Origin: Janthinobacterium sp. 344
Lineage (GTDB): Bacteria; Pseudomonadota; Gammaproteobacteria; Burkholderiales; Burkholderiaceae_D
DNA: 64,000 nt
Assembly: GCF_900112025.1 (NCBI RefSeq)
Contig: NZ_FOKL01000016.1
Location: 1-64,000, forward strand
Direction: 5' to 3'
Every line of letters begins with the position of its first letter. The first letter of the stretch is position 1. The position numbers were made by a program, and so were the translations under genes. The notes below the pieces were generated by a model. It worked only from the letters and a program-made list of their open reading frames with translations, was not told where the DNA came from and did not search any database. This document shows, one piece after another, positions 23,803-52,300 of the stretch.

Positions 23803-23918
23803 CGCCTCACAAAACCTACTGCGCGTCGGTATAGGCGGCCTGCGATGCTCACCGTACTAGAGTACGGTTGCGCTTCTTAGCCACCTCTCCCTTCCGCTCG
23901 CTACGGTTTTGTGAGGCG
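23803..23918 (-). repeat. Structured intergenic repeat, copy A
   Basis: A 116-bp element. The ends are perfect 14-base inverted repeats (CGCCTCACAAAACC / GGTTTTGTGAGGCG). The core, read on the minus strand, contains GAAGCGCAACCGTAC-loop-GTACGGTGAGCATCG with an apical hairpin. It fills the gap between the convergent stop codons of orn and the gene at 23933. Core sequence recurs at 25385, 38046 and 48797. Like copy D it belongs to the GGAAGGNAGAGGTGG subtype. Confidence 0.85.
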
Positions 23919-25384: not shown

Positions 25385-25502
25385 ACGCCTGGGTAAACCG
25401 TCGCGAGCGGCAGTGATTTGTGGCTGAGAAGCGCAACCGTACTCCAGTGCGGTGAGCATCGCCGGCCGCCAAGCGCGACGCGCAGCAGGTTTGCCCTGGC
25501 GT
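25385..25502 (+). repeat. Structured intergenic repeat, copy B
   Basis: A 118-bp element with imperfectly paired ends (ACGCCTGGGTAAACC / GGTTTGCCCTGGCGT) and the shared core GAGAAGCGCAACCGTAC...GTGCGGTGAGCATCG. It ends 4 bases before the AAAGAGG ribosome site of the EamA transporter gene, so it must lie in that gene's leader if transcription starts upstream. It belongs to the GGCAGTGATTTGTGG subtype, like copy C. Confidence 0.82.
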
Positions 25503-38287: not shown

Positions 38288-40726
38288 ATGCAAGCACAGC
38301 AAAATCAGCGCCAGGCCGCTTCCCTCACCGTCGCGTATTCGGCCGACGACGAGTTCGACCAGGACAGCATCGTCTCGCTGCATGATTTCAAGGACCTGGA
38401 GCGCAAGGCGGAAGCGCCGGCGCCAGCGTCCCCCGTCGCGGCACCCGAGCCGCAGGCCGAGGCGGACGCGGAAGCCGAGGTCAAGGCGCCCGCCGCCGAC
38501 CGCCAGAAAATGGAACTGAAAGCCATCCACGAGGCGATTGCCCGCGTGGAAGCGGAAGCGAAGGCCACCTGCGCCGCCGAAAGCCGGGCATTGGCCGAGG
38601 CGCGCGTGCGCTCGCTGGCCGAGGACCGCGCCGCCATCGATGCGGCCGCCGCTGCCGCCGCGCAGCAGAATGCGCAGGCCGCCGAAGAGGCGATTGCCGC
38701 CAACCGCGAACGCCTCGACACCATGCGCGCCGCCGCGCAAGCCAGCGTGGCGCGCCTGGAAGCCGTCAAGCAGGAGACGGCCGAACTGCGCGCCCGCGTG
38801 GAATCCGATAATGAAATCCGCCTGGCCGCCGAACAGCGCGCCCGCGCCGAGCAGGAAAGCCGCCTGCGCGCCAGCGAGCAGGTGGCGGTGCAGTCGGAAC
38901 TGGCCGAGCAGGCCGCCCGCGCCGCCGAGGAATTGCAGGTGCAGACGGAGCAGGCGCGCCTGCAGGCCGTCGAGCGCGTCGCCGCCGTACAGGCGGCCAA
39001 GGATGAAATGGTGGGCATCGCCTCGGCCGATGCCCGTGTCGCCGTGCTGGCCCGCGAACGCGAGCGCCACGCCCACGGAGCGCGCCAGACGGCGCAGATG
39101 CTGGCCGAAGCGGAAAGCGAGGCGCTGGACTTGACGGTGCAGCGCGAGCGCGCCGACCAGATCGCGCTGGAATCGGCCTTCAACCGCGCCGCCGCCGAAG
39201 TGCGCGCCCTGGAAGAAGCGCGCGCGCTGGCGCACCTGGAGCAGGAACGCGAAGCCATCGCCCTGGCGCAGGCGGAATCGGAACGCCATGCGGCGCAATC
39301 GCTGCACCTGCGCCTGCAGACGGAAAAGGAATTGCGCGACGCGGCGATCCACCGTGAACGCCTGGAGATGGTGGCCGTGGCCAGCGCCCAGGCGCGCCGC
39401 GATGCCGACGTGCGCATCCTGGCCGCCACGGAAGCGCGCATCGAAGTGGACCGCCAGCTGCGCGCCGTGGCGCTGGCCCGCGTCAGCGCCGAACAGGATG
39501 CGGAAATCGCCGGCCACGCCAAGCTGGAAGCGGAAACGGCGGCCCTGGAACAAACCAGGGCGCGCGAAGCGGCCGAGCAGGCTGCCGCCATTGCCGCCGC
39601 GCTGGAACTGGACGAGCAGCGCCGCGCCGCCGGCCTGGCGCACGAACGCGCCGAACAGGCACGCCAGGCGGCGCAGCTGGCCGCCAGCCAGAACGACGCC
39701 GAGCAGGCAGCGGTCCATGCCGGCGCGGCCACATTGGCAGCGCAGGAACAGGCGGCCCAACTGGCGCAGGAAAAAGCCCATGAGGCAGCGCGCTTGCTGC
39801 AGGCGGAGCAGGAACGCGCGGCCGCCGAACAGGCCGCCATCGCGGCCTTGAAAGACAAGCTCGCAGCGGAAGCGCAGGCCTTCAACGCGGCGCAGGAACG
39901 CATCAATGCCGAAGCGGCGCAAGCGGAACTGCTGCGCGGCCAGCACGCGGCCGAACAGGCTTTGAAGGAAGCCGCTGAAAAAGAAGCCAACGCCATCCGC
40001 ATCCTGATGGATCAGGCGCTGGTCGAAGGCGAACAGAAAGCGGCGGCCGCGCAAGCCGTGCAGGCGCAGGCGCGCCTGGCCGTGGAACTGGGCCAGGTGC
40101 ACAGCGAGCGGGCCCGCGTGGAGGAAGACAAGGCGCAGGCAGCGGAAGCGCTGCTGGCCTCCGAGCGCGATTTCGTCGCCGCCGAGCGCGAGTCGCTGGC
40201 GCTGATCGCGCAAAAGCTGGTGCAGCAGCGCCAGACCACGGCGGCCGAGGAACGCGCATCGAACGCCATCGCCGGCCGCCTGGACGCGGAAAAGCAGGCG
40301 ACGGCCGCCGCCGAAGCGCGCGCCGCGATGGAGCAGCAGGCGCTCGATGCCATGCGCCAGCGCGAGCAGCTGGAACTGGCGGCGCAGCAGGCCGCCAGCG
40401 ACAAGCTGGAAGCGCAGCAAGCCTTGCTGGCCAGTGCCCAGGCCCACGCCGCCTTGCAGCGCAAGGCCGCCGACACGACGCGCGCCATGGCCGCCGCCAA
40501 GCAGCAATTGCTGGCGCTGGACGTGGCCCGCGCGCAGCAGCAGGAAAGCGAACTGGCCGCCTTGCGCGCCAGCCTGGAACAGCCGTCCAGCGCCTTTGCC
40601 AGCTCGCTGGTCGCCGCCCGCGCCAAGGCCGAGCAGGTCAGTTCGGCCAGCCTGACGCGCGAAGTGATCGAGCGCCTGACGCAGCCGAATGACGCCCCGG
40701 TGGGTGCCGTCTGGCGTTCGCGCTGA
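38288..40726 (+). CDS. Long Ala/Glu-rich coiled-coil protein
   Basis: 812 residues, not recognised. An acidic N-terminus (about 20-40: SADDEFDQDSIVSLHDFKDL) and a Pro/Ala linker lead into an almost unbroken helix from about residue 75 to 780, built of repeating A/E/R/Q heptads such as EQARLQAVERVAAVQAAK. The last 35 residues (SLTREVIERLTQPNDAPVG) are a separate short segment. It has no signal peptide or membrane helix. No enzyme motif is present. A structural or scaffold role is likely from composition only. Promoter unknown; the start ATG follows GCGAGAAATC, a weak site. The long minus-strand frame over it (36884-40765) is a composition shadow. Confidence 0.8.
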   Translation: MQAQQNQRQAASLTVAYSADDEFDQDSIVSLHDFKDLERKAEAPAPASPVAAPEPQAEADAEAEVKAPAADRQKMELKAIHEAIARVEAEAKATCAAESRALAEARVRSLAEDRAAIDAAAAAAAQQNAQAAEEAIAANRERLDTMRAAAQASVARLEAVKQETAELRARVESDNEIRLAAEQRARAEQESRLRASEQVAVQSELAEQAARAAEELQVQTEQARLQAVERVAAVQAAKDEMVGIASADARVAVLARERERHAHGARQTAQMLAEAESEALDLTVQRERADQIALESAFNRAAAEVRALEEARALAHLEQEREAIALAQAESERHAAQSLHLRLQTEKELRDAAIHRERLEMVAVASAQARRDADVRILAATEARIEVDRQLRAVALARVSAEQDAEIAGHAKLEAETAALEQTRAREAAEQAAAIAAALELDEQRRAAGLAHERAEQARQAAQLAASQNDAEQAAVHAGAATLAAQEQAAQLAQEKAHEAARLLQAEQERAAAEQAAIAALKDKLAAEAQAFNAAQERINAEAAQAELLRGQHAAEQALKEAAEKEANAIRILMDQALVEGEQKAAAAQAVQAQARLAVELGQVHSERARVEEDKAQAAEALLASERDFVAAERESLALIAQKLVQQRQTTAAEERASNAIAGRLDAEKQATAAAEARAAMEQQALDAMRQREQLELAAQQAASDKLEAQQALLASAQAHAALQRKAADTTRAMAAAKQQLLALDVARAQQQESELAALRASLEQPSSAFASSLVAARAKAEQVSSASLTREVIERLTQPNDAPVGAVWRSR

Positions 40727-42030: not shown

Positions 42031-42405
42031 TTATTGGCTCAACACGACCTTGTCGGCATAGTATTCCGTCTCGCCGAAGCATTGCGTCGGCACGCCCTTG
42101 TGCTGGCTGTAGGTGACGAGGATGCGCTTGCCGGCGGCGGCCGTCAGCTGCTTCGCCACTTCCTCGTCGCGCACGCTGAACTGGAATTTCTCCGGGATGG
42201 TGCCCGGCAGCGCCGTCAGCAGCAATTCACCTTCCCAGGTCTTGCAAATCCAGCCCCGCTTGGAGAACTTTTGCAGGTAGCCCGCCCGTTCGCCTTCCGA
42301 GTACGAGAAGCTGAGGGCCATCCACGTGTAGGCCGCCAGCAGCAGGAAGCCGGCCACGAGGAAGATGACGAAGGCGAAGGTGACTTTTTTGGTCGTAGGG
42401 GTCAT
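42031..42405 (-). CDS. Small single-pass membrane protein, end of ter operon
   Basis: 124 residues, not recognised. One membrane helix near the N-terminus (VTFAFVIFLVAGFLLLAAYTW), then a soluble part of about 90 residues with two cysteines (WICKTWEG and PTQCFGE) and a probable beta-rich fold ending AGKRILVTYSQHKG. The soluble part probably faces the periplasm, with the lysine-rich start in the cytoplasm; this is inference. It follows terA by 33 bases on the same strand, so it may be the last gene of the Ter operon. Confidence 0.7.
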   Translation of the reverse strand: MTPTTKKVTFAFVIFLVAGFLLLAAYTWMALSFSYSEGERAGYLQKFSKRGWICKTWEGELLLTALPGTIPEKFQFSVRDEEVAKQLTAAAGKRILVTYSQHKGVPTQCFGETEYYADKVVLSQ

Positions 42406-42438: not shown

Positions 42439-43686
42439 TTAGTCTTTCCGTCCGGCTTTCCAGTTCAGGCCAAAGCTGTATCGCTCGTCCATGGCCTGGT
42501 GCGCCGTGATTTTACCTTGGCCGCCGAAGTATTCCACCAATTTTGTCACCTGCAGGTTGCCGCCGTGGTTTTCCAGCATGGCGATGGCGCACATGGCGTG
42601 CTGGCTGTCGCTGTCGAGGCGCACTTCGACGGTGGGCTGGCCGGGAATTTCGATCGTCACGACGCCATCCGTGGCGGCCCAGTTCGGCACGCCCTCGTAG
42701 ATGAAGGCGTACACGAGCACGCGCTTGATCTGGTCGAAATGGGTGCCGTTGATGAAGATATTTTCGCCGCTGCTGACGCTGCCCGTGCGGTCGTCGCCTT
42801 CCAGGTGGATGTACGGTGGCCTGTCATACGCGCCCCAGCTGTTGCCCAGCGCCTGCACGGCGCTCTTGGCGCCATTGCTCATCTCGAACAGGCAGCCGAT
42901 ATCGAGGTCGATGCCGCCCGCACGGCTGGCCGGCTTGTTGAACAATTTGCCGAGGAAGCCCGTGTCCAGCTTCGAGGCGGGCGCCTGGCCTTGCGACGCG
43001 TTCTGGTTCCAGTTCAGGTTGACGCGGATGCGGCCATAGCCGCCGCTGTCGCGCTTGTCGAGCGAGATCTTGTCGCCGCGCTTTTCCAGGCGAATTTTCG
43101 ACAGCGAGATTTTGTTCGCCGGCGGCGCCGCTGGCGTGGGCACGGGACTCGGTGCCGGAGACGGCGCCGGGGCAGATTGCGCCGCCTCGCTGCCGCCGAA
43201 GTGCTTGAGCAGCGCCGCCAGGCCGCCGGCGAACCCCTGGCCCACGGCGCCGAAGCGCCAGCTGCCGTCGCGGCGATACAGTTCGCCGATGATGACGGCT
43301 TTCTCGTCCTGGAAGTCATTGCCCGTGAAGGCAAAGGTGGCGGCCTGGCCCAGCGTCAGGCTGGAGTTGCCCAGCGCGCGCATGCTGCCCTGTTCCGTCG
43401 CCGCCGTAAACACCAGCTTGTCGATCGAGGCGGGCAGGCGCGCCAGGTCCACCTGGAAGGTGGAACGGGGGCCGTTCAGCTCCACCGTGACGGCGTTGTC
43501 CGGCGCGCTTTTCTGGTTGTAGAACACCATGTAGCGGTCGTCCGACAGCTTGCCGGCCGCATCGACGCCGAAGCAGCTGACGTCCACTTCCATCGAGCCC
43601 GAAACGATATCGAGCGTGACGGCAAACGGACCATTCAAGCCCAGGTCAGCCAGTTTGCCTTTTTGTCCGCGTGTGAAATTGGTCAT
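42439..43686 (-). CDS. terA: TerA: tellurium-resistance protein with two TerD-type domains
   Basis: 415 residues. The N-terminal TerD domain (about 1-190) contains YMVFYNQKSAPDNAVTVELN and KAVIIGELYRRDGSWRFGAVGQGFAGGL. A Pro/Ala linker (about 195-215) leads to a TerA-type second domain with RIRVNLNWNQNA, GGIDLDIGCLFE and RVLVYAFIYEG. TerD-type domains are calcium-binding; TerA pairs with TerD/TerC in other bacteria. Its start overlaps the HpcH/HpaI gene by 4 bases, so it closes the biosynthetic block. Confidence 0.9.
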   Translation of the reverse strand: MTNFTRGQKGKLADLGLNGPFAVTLDIVSGSMEVDVSCFGVDAAGKLSDDRYMVFYNQKSAPDNAVTVELNGPRSTFQVDLARLPASIDKLVFTAATEQGSMRALGNSSLTLGQAATFAFTGNDFQDEKAVIIGELYRRDGSWRFGAVGQGFAGGLAALLKHFGGSEAAQSAPAPSPAPSPVPTPAAPPANKISLSKIRLEKRGDKISLDKRDSGGYGRIRVNLNWNQNASQGQAPASKLDTGFLGKLFNKPASRAGGIDLDIGCLFEMSNGAKSAVQALGNSWGAYDRPPYIHLEGDDRTGSVSSGENIFINGTHFDQIKRVLVYAFIYEGVPNWAATDGVVTIEIPGQPTVEVRLDSDSQHAMCAIAMLENHGGNLQVTKLVEYFGGQGKITAHQAMDERYSFGLNWKAGRKD

Positions 43687-44669
43687 GGTCGTGCAATCCC
43701 TTCGTCGCTTGAGAGTTGAGTCAATGAGGTAGTGGCCAGGTGCGGCGGCGCCGCGTCGGCCGCATGGCGGATGCCGAACAGGCGCGCCTGCTCGATGATG
43801 CGCAGGGCCCAGCTGCTATGCGTGGCCACTTCGCACATCGATTCCTGCATGCGGAACACGGCCGGGCTGTCCGGGTCGATGATGCGCAGCGCCAGTTCGA
43901 TGTCCGACTGCGCCACCTGGTAGTGGCGCTCGATCTGCGGCACCTGGTCCGGGTGGATGGCCGTCTTGGCGATCATGCCGTGCGCCATGTCCTGCGCCAC
44001 TTCCGCATCGAGCCAGGCGCCTTGCGACAGGTGCTCGAAGACGGGCGCCGTCAGCTGGAAACCGTGCGGCTTGAAGATCGTCACCAGGCGGCCGATGACC
44101 TGGCCCAGCGGCGTTGAATAAATCGTGCCGCTGGTAGGGCGGCGCAGGCCCAGCAGGGCCAATAAATCGTTGCCGCCGATGCGCAAGGCCAGGATGCGGC
44201 GCCGCACCTCGGGCGCCGACAGCACGATGCGGAACTGCTTCATTTCCTCGTCGTCGAACACTTCCGCCGTTTCCAGCGTCGGCATCAGCAAGTGATGCGT
44301 GTGGCGCACCAGCTCGAAATACGCGGCGAAGTTGTGGCGCGTGGATTTCGGCAGCACGAAGCCGCTCAATTTGTCGGCGCCGGGCATGCCCAGCACGCGG
44401 GCCAGCACGTCGAGATTGCGCACGCGCACGAAGCGCAGGGTATCCGATTCGGCGGCCATGTTTTGCAGCGCCAGCGACAGATTGAACAGCGCATAACTGA
44501 GGTCGCGTTCGGCGATGGCGTCTTCGGTGCACAGGATGACCGAGCGCAGATGGCTGAATTTGTCGCCGTTGGCGATCGCCAGCAGATCCTTGTGCGTGGT
44601 CGGCACATACATGGAGGCGCCCAGCGCCGCCTTGTGTTCACTTTGTGGATGTAGGGAGTTGTTATCCAT
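43683..44669 (-). CDS. HpcH/HpaI aldolase/citrate-lyase-family enzyme (Ter-linked)
   Basis: 328 residues, a TIM barrel of the citrate lyase beta/HpcH family: GASMYVPTTHKDL at the start, FVRVRNLD, GFVLPKSTRHNFAAY, LMPTLETAEVFDDEEM with the metal-binding glutamate, LRIGGNDLLALLGL and AIHPDQVPQI. Such enzymes make or break carbon-carbon bonds next to a carboxylate or CoA ester. In Ter-linked operons it is one of the predicted biosynthetic enzymes. It overlaps the StiP gene by 8 bases. Substrate unknown. Confidence 0.86.
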   Translation of the reverse strand: MDNNSLHPQSEHKAALGASMYVPTTHKDLLAIANGDKFSHLRSVILCTEDAIAERDLSYALFNLSLALQNMAAESDTLRFVRVRNLDVLARVLGMPGADKLSGFVLPKSTRHNFAAYFELVRHTHHLLMPTLETAEVFDDEEMKQFRIVLSAPEVRRRILALRIGGNDLLALLGLRRPTSGTIYSTPLGQVIGRLVTIFKPHGFQLTAPVFEHLSQGAWLDAEVAQDMAHGMIAKTAIHPDQVPQIERHYQVAQSDIELALRIIDPDSPAVFRMQESMCEVATHSSWALRIIEQARLFGIRHAADAAPPHLATTSLTQLSSDEGIARP

Positions 44670-45768
44670 CGACTGCGCTCCTGATAAGGGCGACCGCCTG
44701 GTAAGGCAGCGCCGGTTCTACGGTGACGGGTATGGCTTTTTCCTGCGCCAGAAGCAGCAAATGTGCCACGTCCGGGGCATTCGTGTCGCGCACGATCAGG
44801 CGCTCGGGCACGCGGCGCAGCAGCACGCGCGTCGCTTCGCCGATGCCTGGCTTGATCAGGTTGATGTCGCTGATGCCGTACTGCTGCCGCGCTTGCGCCA
44901 TGTAGGCTTGCGAGCGGGCCGCCATGGCCGGCGCATCGCTCGCCTCGGCCAGCGGGATGCCGCTGCTGGCGGCGATCGCCATGGCGTCGGCCACCAGGCC
45001 GTCGGCGAAAGCGCGCGACTGGTCGTGCTGCTCGAACTGCGCGTAATACACGCAGCCATGGAAGTCGTCCGGGCCGATGGCATCATTCAATACGGAGCGG
45101 CTGACCAGGCCCGAGACGGTGGCGTTCAAGATGCTCGACGGGATCAGGTAGTCGCCCGACGAGGCGGCGCAGGCGGCCGTGCCGGCCAGGTCGGACAGGA
45201 CGAACAGGCCGCCGTCGATGACCGTGCCATTGGCCGCGTTGAAATCGTGGACCGTCTGGCGCAGTTCGCGCGAAATCACGCCCTTGCCCGTCCAGCCGTC
45301 GACGAAGACGAGGGATTCAGCTGCATGGCCCTGCGCCAGGATGTGTTTCAAGGCATTCGCGTCGATGCCGCGGTCGCGGATGATGGAGACGGAATAATGG
45401 CTGCACTCGCGCTGGAACACCTGGCGCAGCAGGTGGCCCAGGATGACGCCCACGGGCGTGCCGGCCCGCGCCAGCGACACCAGCGTGATGGGGCCCGTGC
45501 GGCGCGCCGCGATCAGGGCGGCCAGGCGTAGGCAGTCACGCGCCATCTGCAGGCGGTTGGCCGCGAACGCGCTCTGGAACAGCGCCAGGTAGGCGGGCGA
45601 GGGCAGGGACTCGGGCGACAGCATCTCGCTGTAGTGGCGCTGGCCCGACTGGATCAATCGCTCTTTTTCAGCCAGGTCGAGGATGGGTTCGAGCGCCATC
45701 GGCGTGAGCAGAAACTCCACGTCTTCCTGGCGGTAGCTGCCGCTGAAATGCTGCGTGGCTTCGCTCAT
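44662..45768 (-). CDS. StiP-family phosphoribosyltransferase-like protein (Ter-linked)
   Basis: 368 residues from ATG at 45768 (MSEATQHFSGSYRQEDV). The fold is PRTase-like: LVSLARAGTPVGVILGHLL near 97-115 and a PRPP-loop-like segment, VFVDGWTGKGVISREL (154-169), replace the usual loop. Databases often name this family cysteine protease StiP, but nothing in the sequence points to proteolysis; the Ter-operon context suggests nucleoside-type metabolism. It overlaps the HAD gene by 4 bases. The frame runs open to 46014 as a shadow. Confidence 0.84.
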   Translation of the reverse strand: MSEATQHFSGSYRQEDVEFLLTPMALEPILDLAEKERLIQSGQRHYSEMLSPESLPSPAYLALFQSAFAANRLQMARDCLRLAALIAARRTGPITLVSLARAGTPVGVILGHLLRQVFQRECSHYSVSIIRDRGIDANALKHILAQGHAAESLVFVDGWTGKGVISRELRQTVHDFNAANGTVIDGGLFVLSDLAGTAACAASSGDYLIPSSILNATVSGLVSRSVLNDAIGPDDFHGCVYYAQFEQHDQSRAFADGLVADAMAIAASSGIPLAEASDAPAMAARSQAYMAQARQQYGISDINLIKPGIGEATRVLLRRVPERLIVRDTNAPDVAHLLLLAQEKAIPVTVEPALPYQAVALIRSAVDG

Positions 45769-46517
45769 AGCGCCGCCACCGTGAGGGCCGCCAGCTGGGT
45801 GCCGTTGGGGATGATGGCGTAGTCGCAGGCGGCCATGAAGCGCGCGTCCGAGCGGCTGTCGCCCATGCCGAAACTGAGGATGGGGCCATGTTCGGCTTCC
45901 AGCTCCGCGCGCAGGTAGGCGACGGCGCGCGCCTTGTTCAAGGTCTTGGGCAGCACGGCCAGGTTGTTGCCGTTGCGGTGGATGAAGTAGTCGGCGCCTT
46001 CGCCGGCGATCCATTCGCGCAGCACCTGTTCCTCGATGTCGGCCAGGCGCTCGCCGCGCGCTTCATGGTCCTTGACGACGATGTAGAACGGCGTGTTGTA
46101 GTCTTCGATCAGGCGCGCGCGCGAAGGCATGCCGGCCTTGGCCTGGAAATCGTCGATGATGCGCATGGCGTCGCGCAGGCCGGGCAGGGCCGTCTGCATG
46201 TCGTCCTGCATCAGGGCCAGCCAGCCCGCGTCGAGCGCGCCGCCCGGCTGCAGCACGATGCCGCCGTAATCGAGCACGCTGTAGCTGGTAAACGGCAGGT
46301 CGACTCTGCGAAACGCGTCGCCATTCCTCGCCGTGGCGGGGATCAGGGTCATGCCGCTTTGGGCGAATTCAAAGAAGGCGCGCTGGCGCGCCGTCGTAAA
46401 CGAACAGGCGTCGCCATTTTTCAAATAGGCGGCCGCTTGCAGATCGGTCTCGCCAGGGCATTTTTTCGGGGTCTGGAACAGTGTGTCGTCCAGATCAACA
46501 AACAGGAATTTCTTCAA
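45765..46517 (-). CDS. HAD-family phosphatase (Ter-linked)
   Basis: 250 residues. HAD motif I is FVDLDDTLF (nucleophile D8, acid D10); motif II a threonine in IPATARNGDAF; motif IV GMGDSRSDARFM. The mid cap and the DSRSD pattern place it near the sucrose-phosphate-phosphatase/Cof branch. It would remove a phosphate from a sugar-phosphate intermediate of the Ter pathway. It overlaps the neighbouring PRTase by 23 bases and StiP by 4. Confidence 0.87.
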   Translation of the reverse strand: MKKFLFVDLDDTLFQTPKKCPGETDLQAAAYLKNGDACSFTTARQRAFFEFAQSGMTLIPATARNGDAFRRVDLPFTSYSVLDYGGIVLQPGGALDAGWLALMQDDMQTALPGLRDAMRIIDDFQAKAGMPSRARLIEDYNTPFYIVVKDHEARGERLADIEEQVLREWIAGEGADYFIHRNGNNLAVLPKTLNKARAVAYLRAELEAEHGPILSFGMGDSRSDARFMAACDYAIIPNGTQLAALTVAAL

Positions 46518-47652
46518 TTTTGGTCTCTGACTGAAAGTGGAACAGGCGGCCGTTCAACTGGCCGGCGAGTTGCATGAGGGCCGGGCTGGCCGGGGTTTCA
46601 TGGCAGATGAAGACGTGCTGGTACTGGCCAGGCGCCACGTTGTACAGGTAGTTGGCGATGCCTTCGCCGTAATTGTCGTCGCAGCGGACGATATGGCCGA
46701 CGGCGCCCCACGACAGGATAGGCGAGCGCGTGGTCGATTGCACCACGACGTTCTTGCCCAGGTTTTCCAGTTCGCGCGCCAGCAGGAACGAGGGGTGCAT
46801 GAATTCGCCCGTGCCCAGCACCAGCACGGAGTCGCCGGCGCCGATTTCCTGCGCCAGCTGCACCGCCAGCCCTTGCGGCGGGCTCAATGCGCGGCCTACG
46901 CCGATGCGCCCGAAGGCGGGACTGGCGCCCCGTTCCTCGTTCGCCTCGAAACGCTGCGCGCTGGCCGCCACTGGAGCGGGCGCGGCGCCGGCCTGGAAGG
47001 CGTAGTGGCCGGAGAGCGCCGCGCCGATGGTCGTGGGCAGGCCGAAACGCTCACTCAGGCCCCCGTTGGCGGCCTGGCCCATGAAATTGGTGATGACGCC
47101 CAGGTGCAGCTTTTCCAGCTGCGGATAGCGCGCGCGGCACACTTGCACCAGGTTGCCGAAGGTGTTGCCGGTCGATGCTTCATCGTCGATCAGCACCAGG
47201 CTGCGGGCCGTGGAAAACAGGGCGCTGGCCGCGTCCGACAAATGCAAAAACTGGCGCGGCGCGTGGCTGTGCGATTCCTCGAATTCGAAGAAGGGCACGC
47301 TGCCGACGCGGTAGCGCGAACTGTGCAGGAACAGCGCTTGTCCATTCGGGTTGGCGCGCAGCCAGGCTTCGAACACGCCCTGGCCCAGGCCGACGGCCGT
47401 TTCCGCCATGGCGATGAAGACGACGGGGCCGGGCAGGCTGGGGGGAATCTGCGCGGCCAGGTCGTCGTGGATGGCTTCCATGGCGCGCGGCGTGACGGGC
47501 CAATGCTTGCCCAGCACCTTGGACAGGAACAAAAAGCCGCGCTTGGCGTTGGCGCGCGCGGCAAAGCCGATCAGCCAGTCCAGCGGGAAGCGCGCCTCGT
47601 CCACCTTCAGGGTCAGTTCGCCCGTGGGCATCTGCTGCTTGACGAGGTTCAT
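46495..47652 (-). CDS. Phosphoribosyltransferase with TRSP domain (Ter-linked)
   Basis: 385 residues from ATG at 47652 (MNLVKQQMPTGEL). The first ~230 residues are a PRTase domain with the PRPP loop VLIDDEASTGNT (153-164) and IAMAETAVGLGQGVF. The C-terminal part (about 260-385; VLVLGTGEFMHPSFLLAREL and VRCDDNYGEGIANYLYNV) fits the TRSP domain that accompanies it in Ter operons. The pair probably attaches a base to a phosphoribosyl group, which is inference. It overlaps the ATP-grasp gene by 4 bases. Confidence 0.88.
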   Translation of the reverse strand: MNLVKQQMPTGELTLKVDEARFPLDWLIGFAARANAKRGFLFLSKVLGKHWPVTPRAMEAIHDDLAAQIPPSLPGPVVFIAMAETAVGLGQGVFEAWLRANPNGQALFLHSSRYRVGSVPFFEFEESHSHAPRQFLHLSDAASALFSTARSLVLIDDEASTGNTFGNLVQVCRARYPQLEKLHLGVITNFMGQAANGGLSERFGLPTTIGAALSGHYAFQAGAAPAPVAASAQRFEANEERGASPAFGRIGVGRALSPPQGLAVQLAQEIGAGDSVLVLGTGEFMHPSFLLARELENLGKNVVVQSTTRSPILSWGAVGHIVRCDDNYGEGIANYLYNVAPGQYQHVFICHETPASPALMQLAGQLNGRLFHFQSETKIEEIPVC

Positions 47653-48686
47653 GGCAGCTCCACGGCGTAGGCGGCTTCCGCCACGCGCATGCCCTCGCGG
47701 ATGGCGGGCACGCTGAGCTTGTCGTAGCCCTGGTCGAAGCCGGCCAGCGCCAGGTAAGGCAGGTTGGGGCCGGCCGCGCAGGCCATGCCGATGCCGCCCG
47801 ACATGCGCGGATTGATTTCCAGCAGCGCCAGGCCGTTCGCGCCTTCGCGGAACTGGATGTTGAAGACGCCATTCAAGCGGTAGTCGCGCGCCAGCTTGTC
47901 GCAGGCGGCCAGCAAGTCGGCGCGCAGTTCGATCAATTGCCCGCTGCCGCCCGCGTGCAGCTTCTTGCGCGGCACGGCACACATGAGCGTGCCCTGGTCG
48001 GCCACGCAGTCGGCGCTGTATTCGTGGCCATCGAGGTATTCCATCAGCAGCAGGGTTTTAAATGTCCCCATCTGCGCCAGGCCGCTGCGCAGCTCCTGCG
48101 CATTGACCTGGTAGGCGGCGCCGGCCAGCAGCAGTTGCGCGCTGGAACGCTCTTCATCGAGTACGGCAAAGCCCAGGCCATACACGGACTCGGATGGCTT
48201 GATGCACAGCTTGCGGTGCAGTGGGCGCAGTTCGGCGTAGGCGGCGTCGTATTCTGCGATGGTGGTGACGGCGCGGTAGTCGGCCGGACGCGCCATGGGC
48301 AGGTCGAGGCCGTCGCAAAAGCGCGCCTTGTCGTGCATCAGGGCCAGGGTATCTTCGCTGGCCACGCTGAGCACGCGCGTGCCGATGGCGGCGAAGCGCG
48401 CGCTGGCGCTGCCGATCAGGCCCGCTTCCTTGCCGGGCCAGAAAATCGTGATCTCGCGGTCGCGGCAAAATTCCAGGCACCATTCCACATAATTGAGGCC
48501 CGTCAGCCCCGCCGGTTCAACCGCATAGTCATGCGCCGACAAAAAGGCGGCCGCATGCGCGTTCGTATTGCTGCACACGATGTGGTAGCGGGGCGCACCG
48601 CCCGTGGCGGCGCTGTCGGCTTCGCGGATCAGGCGCATGGCCGTGCCGACGGAGGAAAATGTTTTGTTGAACCAGACTCTTTGCAT
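47649..48686 (-). CDS. ATP-grasp ligase (Ter-linked)
   Basis: 345 residues. ATP-grasp fold: an N-terminal Rossmann part (MQRVWFNKTFSSVGTAMRLI), nucleotide-binding KLCIKPSESVYGLGFAVLDE, LLMEYLDGHEYSADCVA, and the catalytic C-terminal LLEINPRMSGGIG, whose E and N hold magnesium. It joins a carboxylate to an amine or thiol at the cost of ATP. It is the first gene of the six-gene overlapping chain; the 230 bases upstream contain repeat copy D and two hairpins, and any promoter must lie there. Substrate unknown. Confidence 0.88.
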   Translation of the reverse strand: MQRVWFNKTFSSVGTAMRLIREADSAATGGAPRYHIVCSNTNAHAAAFLSAHDYAVEPAGLTGLNYVEWCLEFCRDREITIFWPGKEAGLIGSASARFAAIGTRVLSVASEDTLALMHDKARFCDGLDLPMARPADYRAVTTIAEYDAAYAELRPLHRKLCIKPSESVYGLGFAVLDEERSSAQLLLAGAAYQVNAQELRSGLAQMGTFKTLLLMEYLDGHEYSADCVADQGTLMCAVPRKKLHAGGSGQLIELRADLLAACDKLARDYRLNGVFNIQFREGANGLALLEINPRMSGGIGMACAAGPNLPYLALAGFDQGYDKLSVPAIREGMRVAEAAYAVELP

Positions 48687-48745
48687 GTACGGGGACCGGG
48701 TAAAGAAAGGGGAAGCCGCGCGCAGGTGCGCGCGCGGGGATTCTA

Positions 48746-48792
48746 GCCAGGCAGACTTAACCTGGCCTTAGAAGTTTTTTGAACAAAAAACT
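48746..48792 (-). promoter_or_regulatory. Hairpins in the leader of the Ter biosynthetic chain
   Basis: Two inverted repeats lie upstream of the ATP-grasp gene: GCCAGG/CCTGGC at 48746-48765 and AGTTTTTT/AAAAAACT around GAAC at 48773-48792. On the minus strand TAGAAT near 48741 could be a -10, but no matching -35 is seen. Promoter position is uncertain. Confidence 0.35.
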
Positions 48793-48796
48793 GACA

Positions 48797-48914
48797 GCGC
48801 CTGACAAAACCGTAGCGAGCGGAAGGAAGAGGTGGCCGAGAAGCGCAACCGTACTAAAGTACGGTGAGCATCGCAGGCCGCCTATGCCGACGCGTAGTAG
48901 GTTTGGTCAGGTGC
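48797..48914 (+). repeat. Structured intergenic repeat, copy D
   Basis: A 118-bp element with paired ends (GCGCCTGACAAAACC / GGTTTGGTCAGGTGC, wobbles only) and an apical hairpin CCGTAC-TAAA-GTACGG. It lies between the ATP-grasp gene and the AIM24 gene, ending 2 bases from the AIM24 stop codon. Same subtype as copy A. Confidence 0.85.
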
Positions 48915-48916
48915 CT

Positions 48917-49636
48917 CTAGCCAGCCTTGCCGCTGGCCGTCCATTTTAAGAACGCGTCGCGGTTGCGCGAGCAGATGAAGACCTTGCCCGAGCCGGAAAA
49001 GCGCAGCACGATGCCTTCGCCGCTGGTCACGCTGTTGACGATATTGCCGAGGAAGCCGCCGATACCGCCGCCGCCGCCCGCGCCGCCGCCCGTGGTCACG
49101 GAAATCTCGTATTTCAGGCTATTGTCCCAGCACACCACGTGGGAATTGTCGATCACGACGTCCTTGCCCGGCTCGACGTCGAGCTGGAACATGGAGCCGA
49201 AGCCCGACACCACCACTTGCCCCGTGCCGGCCGTCTCCATGACGAAGAAGCCGCCCGACTGGGCGAACAGCGCGTTGCCGATGCTTTGCGTGCGCACCTT
49301 CATTTCCGTGCCCGAAGTGGCGGCGACAAAGGCGCCGTCGTTGAGCAGGTACTGGCGCGCGCCCACGTCGACCACTTCGATGGCGCCCGGCAGGGTGGGC
49401 GAGAGCAGGCAATCGCCGCTGCCGCGCACCGCTTCGATGTGCTGCTGGAAGAACGATTCGCCATTCGCGAAACGGCGCATGATGGCGCTGCCCAGGCCGC
49501 CTGTCATCTTGCCCTTCAAATCGAGCGCCGTTTCCATCATCACCATCGCATCGGATTCGCAATAGATGGTTTCGCCCTGTTTCATGCTGACGTGGAGGAA
49601 AGGATCGACGTCGCCCGTGACACTAAATACCGGCAT
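48917..49636 (-). CDS. AIM24-family protein
   Basis: 239 residues from ATG at 49636, with GGGAG 7 bases upstream. The AIM24/TIGR00266 beta-helix-like fold is indicated by LSPTLPGAIEVVDV, YLLNDGAFVAATSGTEMK, GGFFVMETAGTGQVVVSGFG and EGIVLRFSGSGKVFICSRN. A Gly-rich insert (about 184-196) precedes the last segment. The family is widespread and often near Ter proteins; its function is unknown. A terminator hairpin ends directly before its ribosome site, so expression may depend on read-through from terD. Confidence 0.86.
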   Translation of the reverse strand: MPVFSVTGDVDPFLHVSMKQGETIYCESDAMVMMETALDLKGKMTGGLGSAIMRRFANGESFFQQHIEAVRGSGDCLLSPTLPGAIEVVDVGARQYLLNDGAFVAATSGTEMKVRTQSIGNALFAQSGGFFVMETAGTGQVVVSGFGSMFQLDVEPGKDVVIDNSHVVCWDNSLKYEISVTTGGGAGGGGGIGGFLGNIVNSVTSGEGIVLRFSGSGKVFICSRNRDAFLKWTASGKAG

Positions 49637-49648
49637 GATAAATCTCCC

Positions 49649-49680
49649 AAAAAAAAAGCCGCCTGAACTGTGCAGGCGGC
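49649..49680 (-). terminator. Intrinsic terminator between terD and the AIM24 gene
   Basis: On the minus strand GCCGCCTG and CAGGCGGC pair around a 7-base loop and are followed by nine T, then directly by GGGAG, the AIM24 ribosome site, and its ATG. It should stop most terD transcripts before AIM24, or act as an attenuator. Confidence 0.88.
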
Positions 49681-49769
49681 AGTAATGATATGACAAAAGT
49701 ACCATTCACCTCGGAAAACCGTCGCGGGCACGCCGCATGCGCGGCGCGGCAGGTTTACCGGGCGTGAAT

Positions 49770-50345
49770 TTAAGCGTTCACGCCGAAGGAGCGGGCGAGG
49801 GGGCCCAGGCCGCCGTTGAAGCCCTGGCCGATGGCCTTGAACTTCCATTCGCCGTTGTAGCGGTAGATCTCGCCAAAGATCATCGCCGTTTCCGTCGAGC
49901 TGTCTTCGGACAGGTCGTAGCGGGCGATTTCGCGTTCGCCTTCCGCGTTCAGGCAGCGGATGAAGGCTTTCGAGACCATGCCGAAGTTCTGGCGGCGCGC
50001 GTCGGCGTCGTGGATGGTCACGGTGATGCTGATGCGGTCGATGTCGGCCGGCACACGGGTCAGGTCGATTTCGATGCGCTCATCGTCGCCCTCGCCTTCG
50101 CCGGTCTGGTTATCGCCCGTGTGGACGACGGAACCGTCGGTCGACTTCAGGTTGTTGTAGAAGATGAAGTCAGAGTCGCCACGGACTTTGCCGTCGCTTT
50201 TCAGGAGGAAGGCGCTGCCGTCAAGGTCGAAGGTGGCGCCGTCGGTCGAACGAGGATCCCAGCCGAGGCCGACGATGATCTTCTTCAGGTTCGGTGCTTC
50301 CTTGCTCAGGTTGACGTTGCCGCCTTTTTGCAAACTGATTGCCAT
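49770..50345 (-). CDS. terD: TerD-family calcium-binding stress protein
   Basis: 191 residues, the typical TerD length. Motifs: [40 protein letters not shown], a calcium-binding acidic segment [14 protein letters not shown], and [20 protein letters not shown]. TerD proteins bind calcium and confer tellurite, phage or colicin tolerance with TerC in other bacteria. It lies 99 bases behind the TerC-like gene and is followed by the terminator at 49649. Confidence 0.93.
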
Positions 50346-50444
50346 GTGGTGCTCCTTAAATAATTAAACTTAATCATGCCTTCATGGGATGAGCGCAAGG
50401 CGCTCGTGCCATCACTCTCTCAATTGGGGGCGGAACCCCCGATT

Positions 50445-51524
50445 TCAAGCTTGTGCCGCGTGCCGCTTGCGATAACGCAAGGATGACCACAGCGAGACCA
50501 GGATGAAGGCCACGCCCGACAGGCCCGTGAACCACTCTGGAATATGGTACTTGACGGAACCCAGCATGATCAAGGCCAGGATGCCGATCGCATAATGGGC
50601 GCCGTGCTCGAGGTAGACGAACTCGTCCAGGGTGCCCTTGTGCACCAGGAACACCGTCATCGAGCGCACGAACATGGCGCCGATGGCCAGGCCCAGCATG
50701 ATGATGACGACGTCGTTGGTGATGGCAAAGGCGCCGATCACGCCGTCAAAGCTGAACGAGGCATCCAGCACTTCCAGGTACAAGAACCCGCCGATGCTGC
50801 CGCGCGCCACGGTTTTCACCAGGTCGCCATTGCCGCTTTTCGCCGGCGCCGCATCGTCGTCATCGCCTTGCAGGTCCGGTTCGCCTTCTTCCAGCAAGCC
50901 GCTGATCCAGTTCACGCCGATGTAGACGGCGATGCCGACGATGCCCGACGCCAGCACGCTGTATTTGGCTTCCGCAGGGCCCATGGCCACGCAGGCGGCC
51001 ACGGCGCCCATGGTGATCAGCACGGCCAGGCTTTCGGTGCCCAGCGCGTTGACTTTTTCCTCGGCCCAGCCCAGCCAGTGCAATTCCTTCTCATCGTCGA
51101 ACAGGAAGTTCAGGAACACCAGCAGCAAAAAGGCGCCGCCGAAGGCCGCCACTTGCGCGTGGTTGTCCGTCAGGTGCTTGGCGTACACGTCGGGCGTGGT
51201 GGTGGCCATGGTCCACACATCGACCAGGCCCAGGCCCGTGGCCACGGAAACGATGACCAGCGGGAACAGCAGGCGCATGCCGAACACGGCCACGAGGATA
51301 CCCACCGTCAAAAACAGTTTTTGCCAGAATTCATTCCAGTGGCGCAAGACCGAGGCGTTGACGACGGCATTGTCGAACGACAGCGAGACTTCCATGATGC
51401 CCAGCACGCCCGTGATCCACAGCGCCTGGATCATGCCCGCCGTGCCGCCATGGCTGTAACCCCACCAGCCGGACACCGCCATGAGGATGAAGGTAACGAA
51501 GAAAGAAATTCTGAAATGCCGCAT
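50445..51524 (-). CDS. TerC-like integral membrane protein (DUF475)
   Basis: 359 residues with about eight to nine membrane helices. It carries the acidic intramembrane motifs of TerC/DUF475: IMEVSLSFDNAVVNASVL near residue 45 and LDASFSFDGVIGAFAITND near 255. An acidic cytoplasmic loop (EGEPDLQGDDDDAAP) is near 215. TerC-type proteins transport or sense metal ions and hold Ter complexes at the membrane. The start is ATG at 51524 with a GGGG site 5 bases upstream. First gene of the Ter region; the palindrome at 51591 lies upstream. Confidence 0.9.
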   Translation of the reverse strand: MRHFRISFFVTFILMAVSGWWGYSHGGTAGMIQALWITGVLGIMEVSLSFDNAVVNASVLRHWNEFWQKLFLTVGILVAVFGMRLLFPLVIVSVATGLGLVDVWTMATTTPDVYAKHLTDNHAQVAAFGGAFLLLVFLNFLFDDEKELHWLGWAEEKVNALGTESLAVLITMGAVAACVAMGPAEAKYSVLASGIVGIAVYIGVNWISGLLEEGEPDLQGDDDDAAPAKSGNGDLVKTVARGSIGGFLYLEVLDASFSFDGVIGAFAITNDVVIIMLGLAIGAMFVRSMTVFLVHKGTLDEFVYLEHGAHYAIGILALIMLGSVKYHIPEWFTGLSGVAFILVSLWSSLRYRKRHAAQA

Positions 51525-52191: not shown

Positions 52192-52203
52192 GTTTCATTC
52201 TTG

Positions 52204-52247
52204 CTGAAACGCAAAACCCCGCCGGAAGGCGGGGTTTTGCGTTTCAG
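52204..52247. terminator. Long perfect hairpin terminator
   Basis: CTGAAACGCAAAACCCCGCC and its exact complement form a 20-bp stem around a GGAA loop, 12 bases behind the PAP2-like gene. The TTTT inside the arm and GC core make it a strong terminator for plus-strand transcription. Confidence 0.88.
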
Positions 52248-52300
52248 GGCGGAAAAACTACGTTTCATCCACCGATTAAAGCATTACAGGAAACCGCCGA

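Follow-up and report, generated by a model that had tools for sequence, protein, structure and literature searches.

A near-core chromosomal Ter-linked operon of Janthinobacterium encodes five enzymes that very probably form a PRPP-using module

Introduction

In 2012, Anantharaman, Iyer and Aravind reportedly proposed, by comparative genomics, that a biosynthetic module is linked to the Ter proteins. Here, we describe a locus of this kind in Janthinobacterium sp. 344 (contig NZ_FOKL01000016.1 of assembly GCF_900112025.1), within a stretch of 64,000 nucleotides, positions 1 to 64,000 of the forward strand, that we call the window. Nine genes, recovered as open reading frames at 42439-51524 and all on the minus strand, encode an ATP-grasp ligase, a phosphoribosyltransferase (PRTase) of the PRTase_2 family, a HAD phosphatase, StiP and a CitE-like lyase, together with TerC-like, TerD, AIM24-family and TerA-like proteins. 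The general idea of a Ter module is already published; what is new here is a near-core chromosomal member. We add the loss of the acidic pair of StiP, its CriT-like fold, the residues of its L7Ae-like domain, statistics on gene order and likely breaks in transcription.

Several described systems are relevant to the function of these genes. In the Bcs3 protein of Haemophilus influenzae type b, CriT transfers ribose-5-phosphate from phosphoribosyl pyrophosphate (PRPP) to a hydroxyl, and the HAD protein CrpP then removes the phosphate; CriT lacks the vicinal acid pair and uses Asp680 and Glu818, which come from two loops (PMC10299916). A precedent for the transfer from PRPP to RNA is Rit1, which acts on the initiator tRNA of yeast (PMC7694415). 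The genes terZ-F suffice for tellurite resistance in Klebsiella (PMC8115787), and the Ter region of the Acinetobacter phage vB_AbaM_ME3 has been noted before (PMC7824862).

Results

A five-enzyme module in conserved order beside Ter genes

All five enzyme families lie together at the locus, with adjoining TerD, TerA and TerC genes (Table 1), and the five enzymes of the operon very probably constitute a genuine module that uses PRPP and is tied to Ter proteins. An earlier reading of the DNA, made from the letters alone (the sequence-only reading), had called nine minus-strand genes with the same outer coordinates and had linked them to the published proposal of a Ter metabolite. Pfam named every one of these genes and the five families stand beside Ter genes, so that both points were borne out, as was its range of 4-23 bases for the overlaps in the block of six genes that runs from the ATP-grasp to the TerA-like gene. 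These overlaps measure 4, 23, 4, 8 and 4 bases. Of 12 Janthinobacterium relatives, 7 share this whole series, and the overlap of 23 bases, which goes with the TTG start of the HAD gene, was present in all 13 rows measured (the window and 12 relatives). The first three genes are more loosely set, with gaps of 99, 133 and 230 bases.

Gene order was followed in the best 80 of 588 confirmed StiP matches in named genomes, of which 49 loci were usable, i.e., had at least 5.5 kb on each side of StiP. The best of these matches are from Janthinobacterium, and the 80 loci span from Proteobacteria to Clostridium, Planctomycetota, Nitrospira and cyanobacterial bins. The order PRTase_2-HAD-StiP-lyase was kept in 40 of the 49 usable loci (32 of 41 once the Janthinobacterium loci were set aside), with ATP-grasp directly before it in 27. 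Near StiP lie PRTase_2 in 45 loci, HAD in 46, the lyase in 46 and ATP-grasp in 32, and 42 have at least one TerD, TerA, TerC or AIM24 gene. A second set of 35 regions, picked for StiP or for a strong lyase match and sharing genomes with the first, had 26 regions usable by the same measure; the order was found in all 26, and ATP-grasp in 23. When the neighbours were clustered over 82 lineages, the frequent companions were TerD, TerA, TerB, AIM24 and TerC, TerB being present in 29 lineages (its representative matches Pfam TerB at E 1.1e-22), and none of the other enzymes came close to the five in frequency. The leading companion outside the Ter families, an ABC transporter ATPase, recurred in 10 lineages (loci L147, L154, L157, L168, L169, L170, L176, L177, L178 and L184).

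Table 1. Features of the Ter-linked locus, in window coordinates and in the direction of transcription
Feature	Coordinates	Strand	Evidence
DUF475-branch TerC-like membrane protein	50445..51524	-	Pfam DUF475 E 1.1e-105, TerC E 2.5e-16
TerD	49770..50345	-	Pfam TerD E 2.9e-87
Terminator-like hairpin followed by a T tract, in the TerD/AIM24 gap, just 5' of the AIM24 ribosome site	49658..49680	-	
AIM24-family protein, ATG at 49636	48917..49636	-	Pfam AIM24 E 1.7e-55
Core of REP-like repeat in the gap between AIM24 and the six-gene block, outside the machinery	48839..48874	-	21 genome sites
Conserved GC hairpin within the ATP-grasp leader	48716..48737	-	9-pair stem over 10 rows
ATP-grasp ligase (ATPgrasp_Ter)	47649..48686	-	Pfam E 1.8e-43
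PRTase_2 with C-terminal TRSP; predicted APRT/XPRT-like fold	46495..47652	-	Pfam, invariant motif, model
HAD phosphatase (Pfam Hydrolase_3/S6PP), TTG start	45765..46517	-	Pfam, invariant residues
StiP: predicted divergent PRTase-fold domain with C-terminal PELOTA_1 (L7Ae/Pelota-like)	44662..45768	-	StiP E 8e-99, PELOTA_1 E 2.9e-33
CitE-like C-C bond lyase	43683..44669	-	Pfam C-C_Bond_Lyase E 1.7e-90
TerA-like protein with TerD domain	42439..43686	-	Pfam TerD E 7.2e-34

Spread in the genus, on plasmids and in phages

StiP was present in 38 of the 40 Janthinobacterium genomes searched and, in a sample of 195 genomes of the family, in 41. The operon is chromosomal and, going by its StiP gene, near-core in Janthinobacterium. 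The G+C content across the stretch, 0.60-0.66, lies inside the range of the whole window. The sequence-only reading had called the locus an island; given these two results, an island or a recent mobile origin was rejected for Janthinobacterium. Despite this, the cluster is found on plasmids in other organisms: among 72,556 plasmid records, 2568 carry a relative of StiP, and 1684 of these plasmids are predicted to be conjugative. Matches to StiP are found in 3 of 50,697 phage records; two of the three represent a single phage, ME3, and the third is an unverified fragment. The 40-kb record of Acinetobacter phage PBAB25 (MG366115; H37 in our set) holds a sequence related to the PRTase portion of PRTase_2 and gave no StiP match.

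The genome itself holds seven TerD-domain matches in three loci. The two further ter loci (G000:C20:73586-76833 and G000:C10:99838-103412; L072 and L071) are, in one case, a TerC(DUF475)-TerD-AIM24-TerD array and, in the other, a group of TerD, TerA-like and TerF-like vWA proteins, and tblastn found none of the five enzymes within 18 kb around each of them. The sequence-only reading had seen no TerB or TerY here. This stands for the genes scanned at the locus, and the genome has two above-cut-off TerB matches on other contigs; the TerY_C profile had 0 matches in the genome, but its control was also silent everywhere, so that this absence is unproven. None of the nine proteins matched a PADLOC model at E 0.001 (library of 2023), and assignment to a named anti-phage defense system was rejected for that reason.

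Conserved residues and folds of the enzymes

Each alignment contained the window protein and relatives picked by hand for spread from a set with a minimum-length filter (45 of 75 for StiP, 42 of 61 for PRTase_2, 34 of 62 for the lyase, 41 of 69 for HAD and 29 of 40 for ATP-grasp). The invariant residues of all five enzymes are presumed to have the catalytic roles usual in their families. In PRTase_2, D156, D157, E158, G162 and T164 are invariant in 43 rows and make up an acidic PRPP motif; E126, H128 and H130 are invariant as well. The model of this protein is confident (mean pLDDT 93.9), with a best Foldseek E-value of 7e-7. Its best structural match is the adenine phosphoribosyltransferase (APRT) of E. 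coli (Z 11.7, root mean square deviation (rmsd) 3.1, 175 aligned), the matches spanning residues 19-221. PRTase_2 thus has both the predicted fold and the acidic motif of a Type I PRTase, and the confident models indicate an APRT/XPRT-like enzyme. The sequence-only reading had looked to structure prediction for the base specificity of the PRTases; folds were obtained, and the base specificity of PRTase_2 is not derivable from its model.

The remaining enzymes also keep their conserved positions. HAD has D8, D10, T62, K195, D220 and D224 invariant in 42 rows, positions that correspond to the phosphatase motifs I to IV. Among the invariant positions of ATP-grasp (30 rows) are K163, E290, N292 and R294. 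In the lyase, R82, E133, D168, K235, H239, P240 and Q242 are invariant in 35 rows, and in a profile search it matches lyases of the CitE type, the best being 3qll (E 3.6e-16). Family match, acids presumed to form the metal site, and a K-x-x-x-HPxQ motif are therefore all present, as in a CitE-like lyase.

StiP, a divergent PRTase fold joined to an L7Ae/Pelota-like domain

The invariant residues of StiP, in 46 rows, are S98, R101, G103, H124, S128, R131, D136, D157, W159, K162, G163, S223, R224 and H237. D157 is followed by G (43 rows), T (2 rows) or A (1 row), which leaves the PRPP loop with no vicinal acidic pair. StiP is therefore a divergent PRTase, lacking the paired acids of ordinary ones. 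The sequence-only reading would have had both PRTases keep their key catalytic residues, which holds for the PRPP motif of PRTase_2 and fails for the acidic pair of StiP.

The model of StiP (mean pLDDT 94.9) has a PRTase fold. In Foldseek, the two top rows by E-value were unrelated folds with low TM-scores, and the next rows were HPRT, PyrR and Bcs3, with probabilities of 0.95-1.00. In a second structural comparison the best match was Bcs3 (8a0c, Z 12.1, 199 aligned, rmsd 3.8; a second crystal of the same protein, 8a0m, gave Z 10.7, 218 aligned, rmsd 4.5), followed by PyrR/HPRT-type PRTases from Z 10.2 downward with 124-171 aligned, a small lead of 0.5 to 1.9 Z units. The stretch of Bcs3 that StiP matches, residues 636-964, lies within CriT. 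When the PRTase domain was compared with solved structures by sequence profile, with E up to 10, there were two weak matches (E 0.15 and 0.7), neither of them to a PRTase. The confident model points to a PRTase fold rather than a protease. StiP may work like CriT; membership in the CriT family is unproven.

The second domain of StiP, which went unmentioned in the sequence-only reading, belongs by sequence match to the L7Ae/Pelota family. Residues 285-364 match PELOTA_1, and a profile of the domain made from 44 rows matches L7Ae (E 0.0011), with KPGIGEATRVLLRR aligned with KKGTNETTKAVERS. Lys306, Glu311 and Arg314 are invariant in 46/46 rows, and L7Ae residues at these positions contact RNA. 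The residue before Glu311 is G, A or S in 46/46 rows, and the L7Ae rows shown carry Asn there. This looks like a domain of the RNA-binding type, a prediction made from its sequence. StiP matches have at least 330 residues in 75/75 loci (L121-L195), so that the two domains occur as a pair in these loci; in one record, a Rhizobium plasmid, the match is limited to the C-terminal third of StiP.

Hairpins, transcription and small repeats

A hairpin with the stem GCCGCCTG/CAGGCGGC and a T tract precedes AIM24 in 12/12 of the Janthinobacterium rows having this gene, window included, with loops that vary; these rows include L083 and L113, seemingly one genome. Rows from outside the genus did not show the hairpin in this form. 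The start of AIM24 is most likely at 49636 and not at 49705, because a conserved GGGAG/GGAG lies just 5' of the former. The leader of the ATP-grasp gene was aligned in 10 rows, leaving aside L121 (whose leader differs), L120 (which has no AIM24) and L083 (seemingly the same genome as L113). One of the 9 pairs of its hairpin is changed on both sides in 2 rows and two pairs are each broken in one row, giving a covariation term of 0.05, so that covariation gives no real support. The last ~14 bases before the ATP-grasp ATG (48687-48700, CCGGTCCCCGTAC and close variants) are nearly constant in the 10 rows and show no clear ribosome site. Rfam gave three matches; each stays under the gathering score of its family, and they all fall at 52194-52299, beyond the nine genes. 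A known RNA element in the leaders was rejected, as no Rfam match lies there.

The region has 16 terminator-like sites against 10.8 (standard deviation (sd) 3.5) in shuffled sequences, and the terminator scan alone therefore proves little. A simple scan found no minus-strand sigma-70-like promoter in the gaps before AIM24 and ATP-grasp. Because hairpins precede AIM24 and ATP-grasp, a single transcript for all nine genes is doubtful. The sequence-only reading had presented the chain as strongly coupled; this holds for the six-gene block and is in doubt for all nine genes.

The palindrome of the REP-like repeat has 21 sites in the genome (at most 3 mismatches), and the reversed control has 0; besides the one in Table 1, the window has sites at 23842-23877 and 25427-25462. 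The three rows that carry the repeat (the window, L114 and L115) have 230-243 bases between AIM24 and ATP-grasp, and the nine without it have 64-125. L115, L116 and L109 have a different palindrome-rich stretch in the gap between TerD and AIM24, where their gaps measure 187-201 bases. The TerD/AIM24 and AIM24/ATP-grasp intergenic sites thus seem to collect small repeats.

Two further frames were noted beyond the nine genes. At 42031-42405, after TerA, lies a gene for a 124-residue protein that has no Pfam match and shares 88-99% identity with three genus relatives. The other, at 38288-40726, is an 812-residue frame rich in alanine, glutamate and glutamine; it probably forms a long coiled coil, and it too has no Pfam match.

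Discussion

The genes, their order and conservation, the predicted folds and the conserved residues form the observed basis from which a function can be proposed. We favor, with a probability of about 0.6, a Ter-linked module whose five enzymes would use PRPP to make a ribosylated molecule of a nucleoside-like kind. This is supported by the complete set with overlapping frames, the counts of gene order, the Ter companions, the plasmid arrangements, the invariant residues and the folds. Most likely, PRTase_2, being APRT-like and having the full PRPP motif, would join a base to ribose-5-phosphate. StiP would use another PRPP for a different acceptor, which may well be a hydroxyl and not a base, and the HAD enzyme would strip the 5-phosphate or 5-phosphates. 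The CitE-like lyase and the ATP-grasp ligase would produce or trim a side group and attach it, and TerD and TerA would bind the product or a metal and, together with the TerC-like protein, work at the membrane in stress. Each of these reactions, the substrates, the order of the steps and the reading of the product by Ter proteins are our proposals. The model of StiP also seems to leave an O-ribosylated product possible, such that "nucleoside-like" is unproven.

Some results weigh against this pathway. Nine of the 49 loci deviate from the order, six (L147, L148, L155, L168, L169 and L176) lack at least one of PRTase_2, HAD and lyase nearby, and ATP-grasp was not found nearby in 17 of the 49. 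We found no substrate or product of the pathway in the open-access literature searched. Since terZ-F suffices in Klebsiella, the enzymes are not needed for tellurite resistance.

The nature of the acceptor is where the main alternatives part. Both PRTases could act on nucleobases, in which case the product would be a plain modified nucleoside, as first proposed. We grant this a modest chance: PRTase_2 is APRT/XPRT-like with the full motif and StiP also matches PyrR and HPRT, at Z about 10, but in StiP the vicinal acidic pair is missing, and the O-ribosyltransferase CriT gives its longest match. On the other hand, StiP, alone or with HAD, could phosphoribosylate a ribose hydroxyl of RNA, with the rest of the pathway decorating the mark. 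The fusion of a CriT-like fold with an L7Ae/Pelota-like domain that keeps Lys306, Glu311 and Arg314 in 46/46 rows speaks for it, together with the precedent of Rit1. Yet the Asn beside Glu in L7Ae is replaced by Gly, Ala or Ser in 46/46 rows, no RNA target is known, and the lyase and the ligase fit a small molecule better, so we consider it improbable. A similarly slim chance goes to StiP as an RNA-docked, PRPP-dependent O-ribosyltransferase whose acceptor would be RNA, or a nucleoside held by the L7Ae-like domain, with HAD dephosphorylating and lyase and ligase decorating the product. We found no report of StiP as CriT-like, as an O-ribosyltransferase or with a characterized product in the open-access literature searched.

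Other readings concern whether StiP is an enzyme of this kind at all, and how the genes are transcribed. A PyrR-like, RNA-binding StiP could regulate its own operon through the leader hairpins instead of catalyzing a reaction. Even though the match to the PyrR fold (Z 10.2), the L7Ae-like domain and the conserved leader hairpins are consistent with such a role, we think it very unlikely, as the AIM24 hairpin is not seen in the same form outside the genus although StiP occurs there, and the invariant charged residues suggest catalysis. Many records label StiP a cysteine protease, which is scarcely credible: the database label is all that speaks for it, there is no invariant cysteine (C239, the best kept, is found in only 42/46 rows and other columns have at most 20 cysteines), and the model has a PRTase fold. 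We rejected this assignment; the common annotation "cysteine protease StiP" is very probably an error. As to transcription, the odds seem even to us that the nine genes form two or three units, of which only the six-gene block is one operon. The terminator-like hairpin and T tract before AIM24, the hairpin before ATP-grasp and the gaps of 133 and 230 bases suggest such breaks; but the simple scan found no sigma-70-like promoter in the gaps, which makes partial read-through equally likely, and the 16 terminator-like sites are only somewhat above the shuffled 10.8 (sd 3.5).

Whichever acceptor is used, a near-core copy in a cultivable soil genus is a clean place to seek the product of the pathway. 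The model of StiP sharpens the "nucleoside-like" idea to two questions: which acceptor takes the ribose from PRPP, and whether RNA is bound. If the O-ribosyl reading were true, the Ter metabolite would be an O-ribosylated RNA or a disaccharide nucleoside, a stress mark of bacteria, plasmids and at least one phage. Ribosylation of this type, directed to RNA or to a nucleoside, would be striking.

Comparison with known systems

PRTase_2 shares with APRT its predicted fold (Z 11.7) and the PRPP motif, and differs from it by the extra TRSP domain and by the invariant E126, H128 and H130. A parallel for StiP may be the CriT/CrpP pair of Bcs3, where a PRPP-using PRTase-like domain likewise lacks vicinal acids and has a HAD partner (PMC10299916). 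StiP and CriT are 10% identical. By chain order alone, both have a single acid in the PRPP loop preceded by serine- and arginine-bearing loops, and StiP has no acid at the place of CriT Asp680, again by chain order. The helical insertion HB-2 of CriT is absent from StiP: it spans ~80 residues (716-795) in CriT, and StiP has 25 residues between the strands 122-127 and 153-160. That the match of StiP covers HB-1 of CriT is suggested by its end points only. The extra L7Ae-like domain sets StiP apart from CriT, and the HAD partners differ as well, as CrpP keeps only the first Asp of DxD (PMC10299916) and the Ter HAD keeps both.

Part of the module is found in phage ME3, which has PRTase_2-HAD-StiP in the same order, beside TerC/TerD-like genes; tblastn of its record gave no match to the window lyase or ATP-grasp at E 1e-5. 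On enterobacterial ter plasmids (E. coli IncHI2A and K. variicola), ATP-grasp, PRTase, a gene at the HAD position, StiP and lyase follow in the same order beside ter genes, with StiP ~40-45% identical to that of the window among the matches listed. The cluster is there divergent from the ter genes, and here it is co-directional with TerC-TerD-AIM24. The HAD position on these two plasmids is annotated only as hypothetical. For the HAD-position genes of the two plasmids and of ME3, Pfam gave one S6PP match just below the cut-off (19.9 versus 20.3 bits) and two without a match; by profile, only the gene of ME3 matches the HAD family of the window, and those of the two plasmids do not. A Polaromonas plasmid has the same arrangement beside TerD genes and a set with TerY-C. 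The module proposed in 2012 reportedly comprises the same enzyme families beside Ter genes, several of them with Ter in their Pfam names or descriptions. Compared with it, the Janthinobacterium locus, with no TerB or TerY adjoining, is chromosomal and near-core as judged by StiP, and it joins the five enzymes to a DUF475-type TerC and to AIM24.

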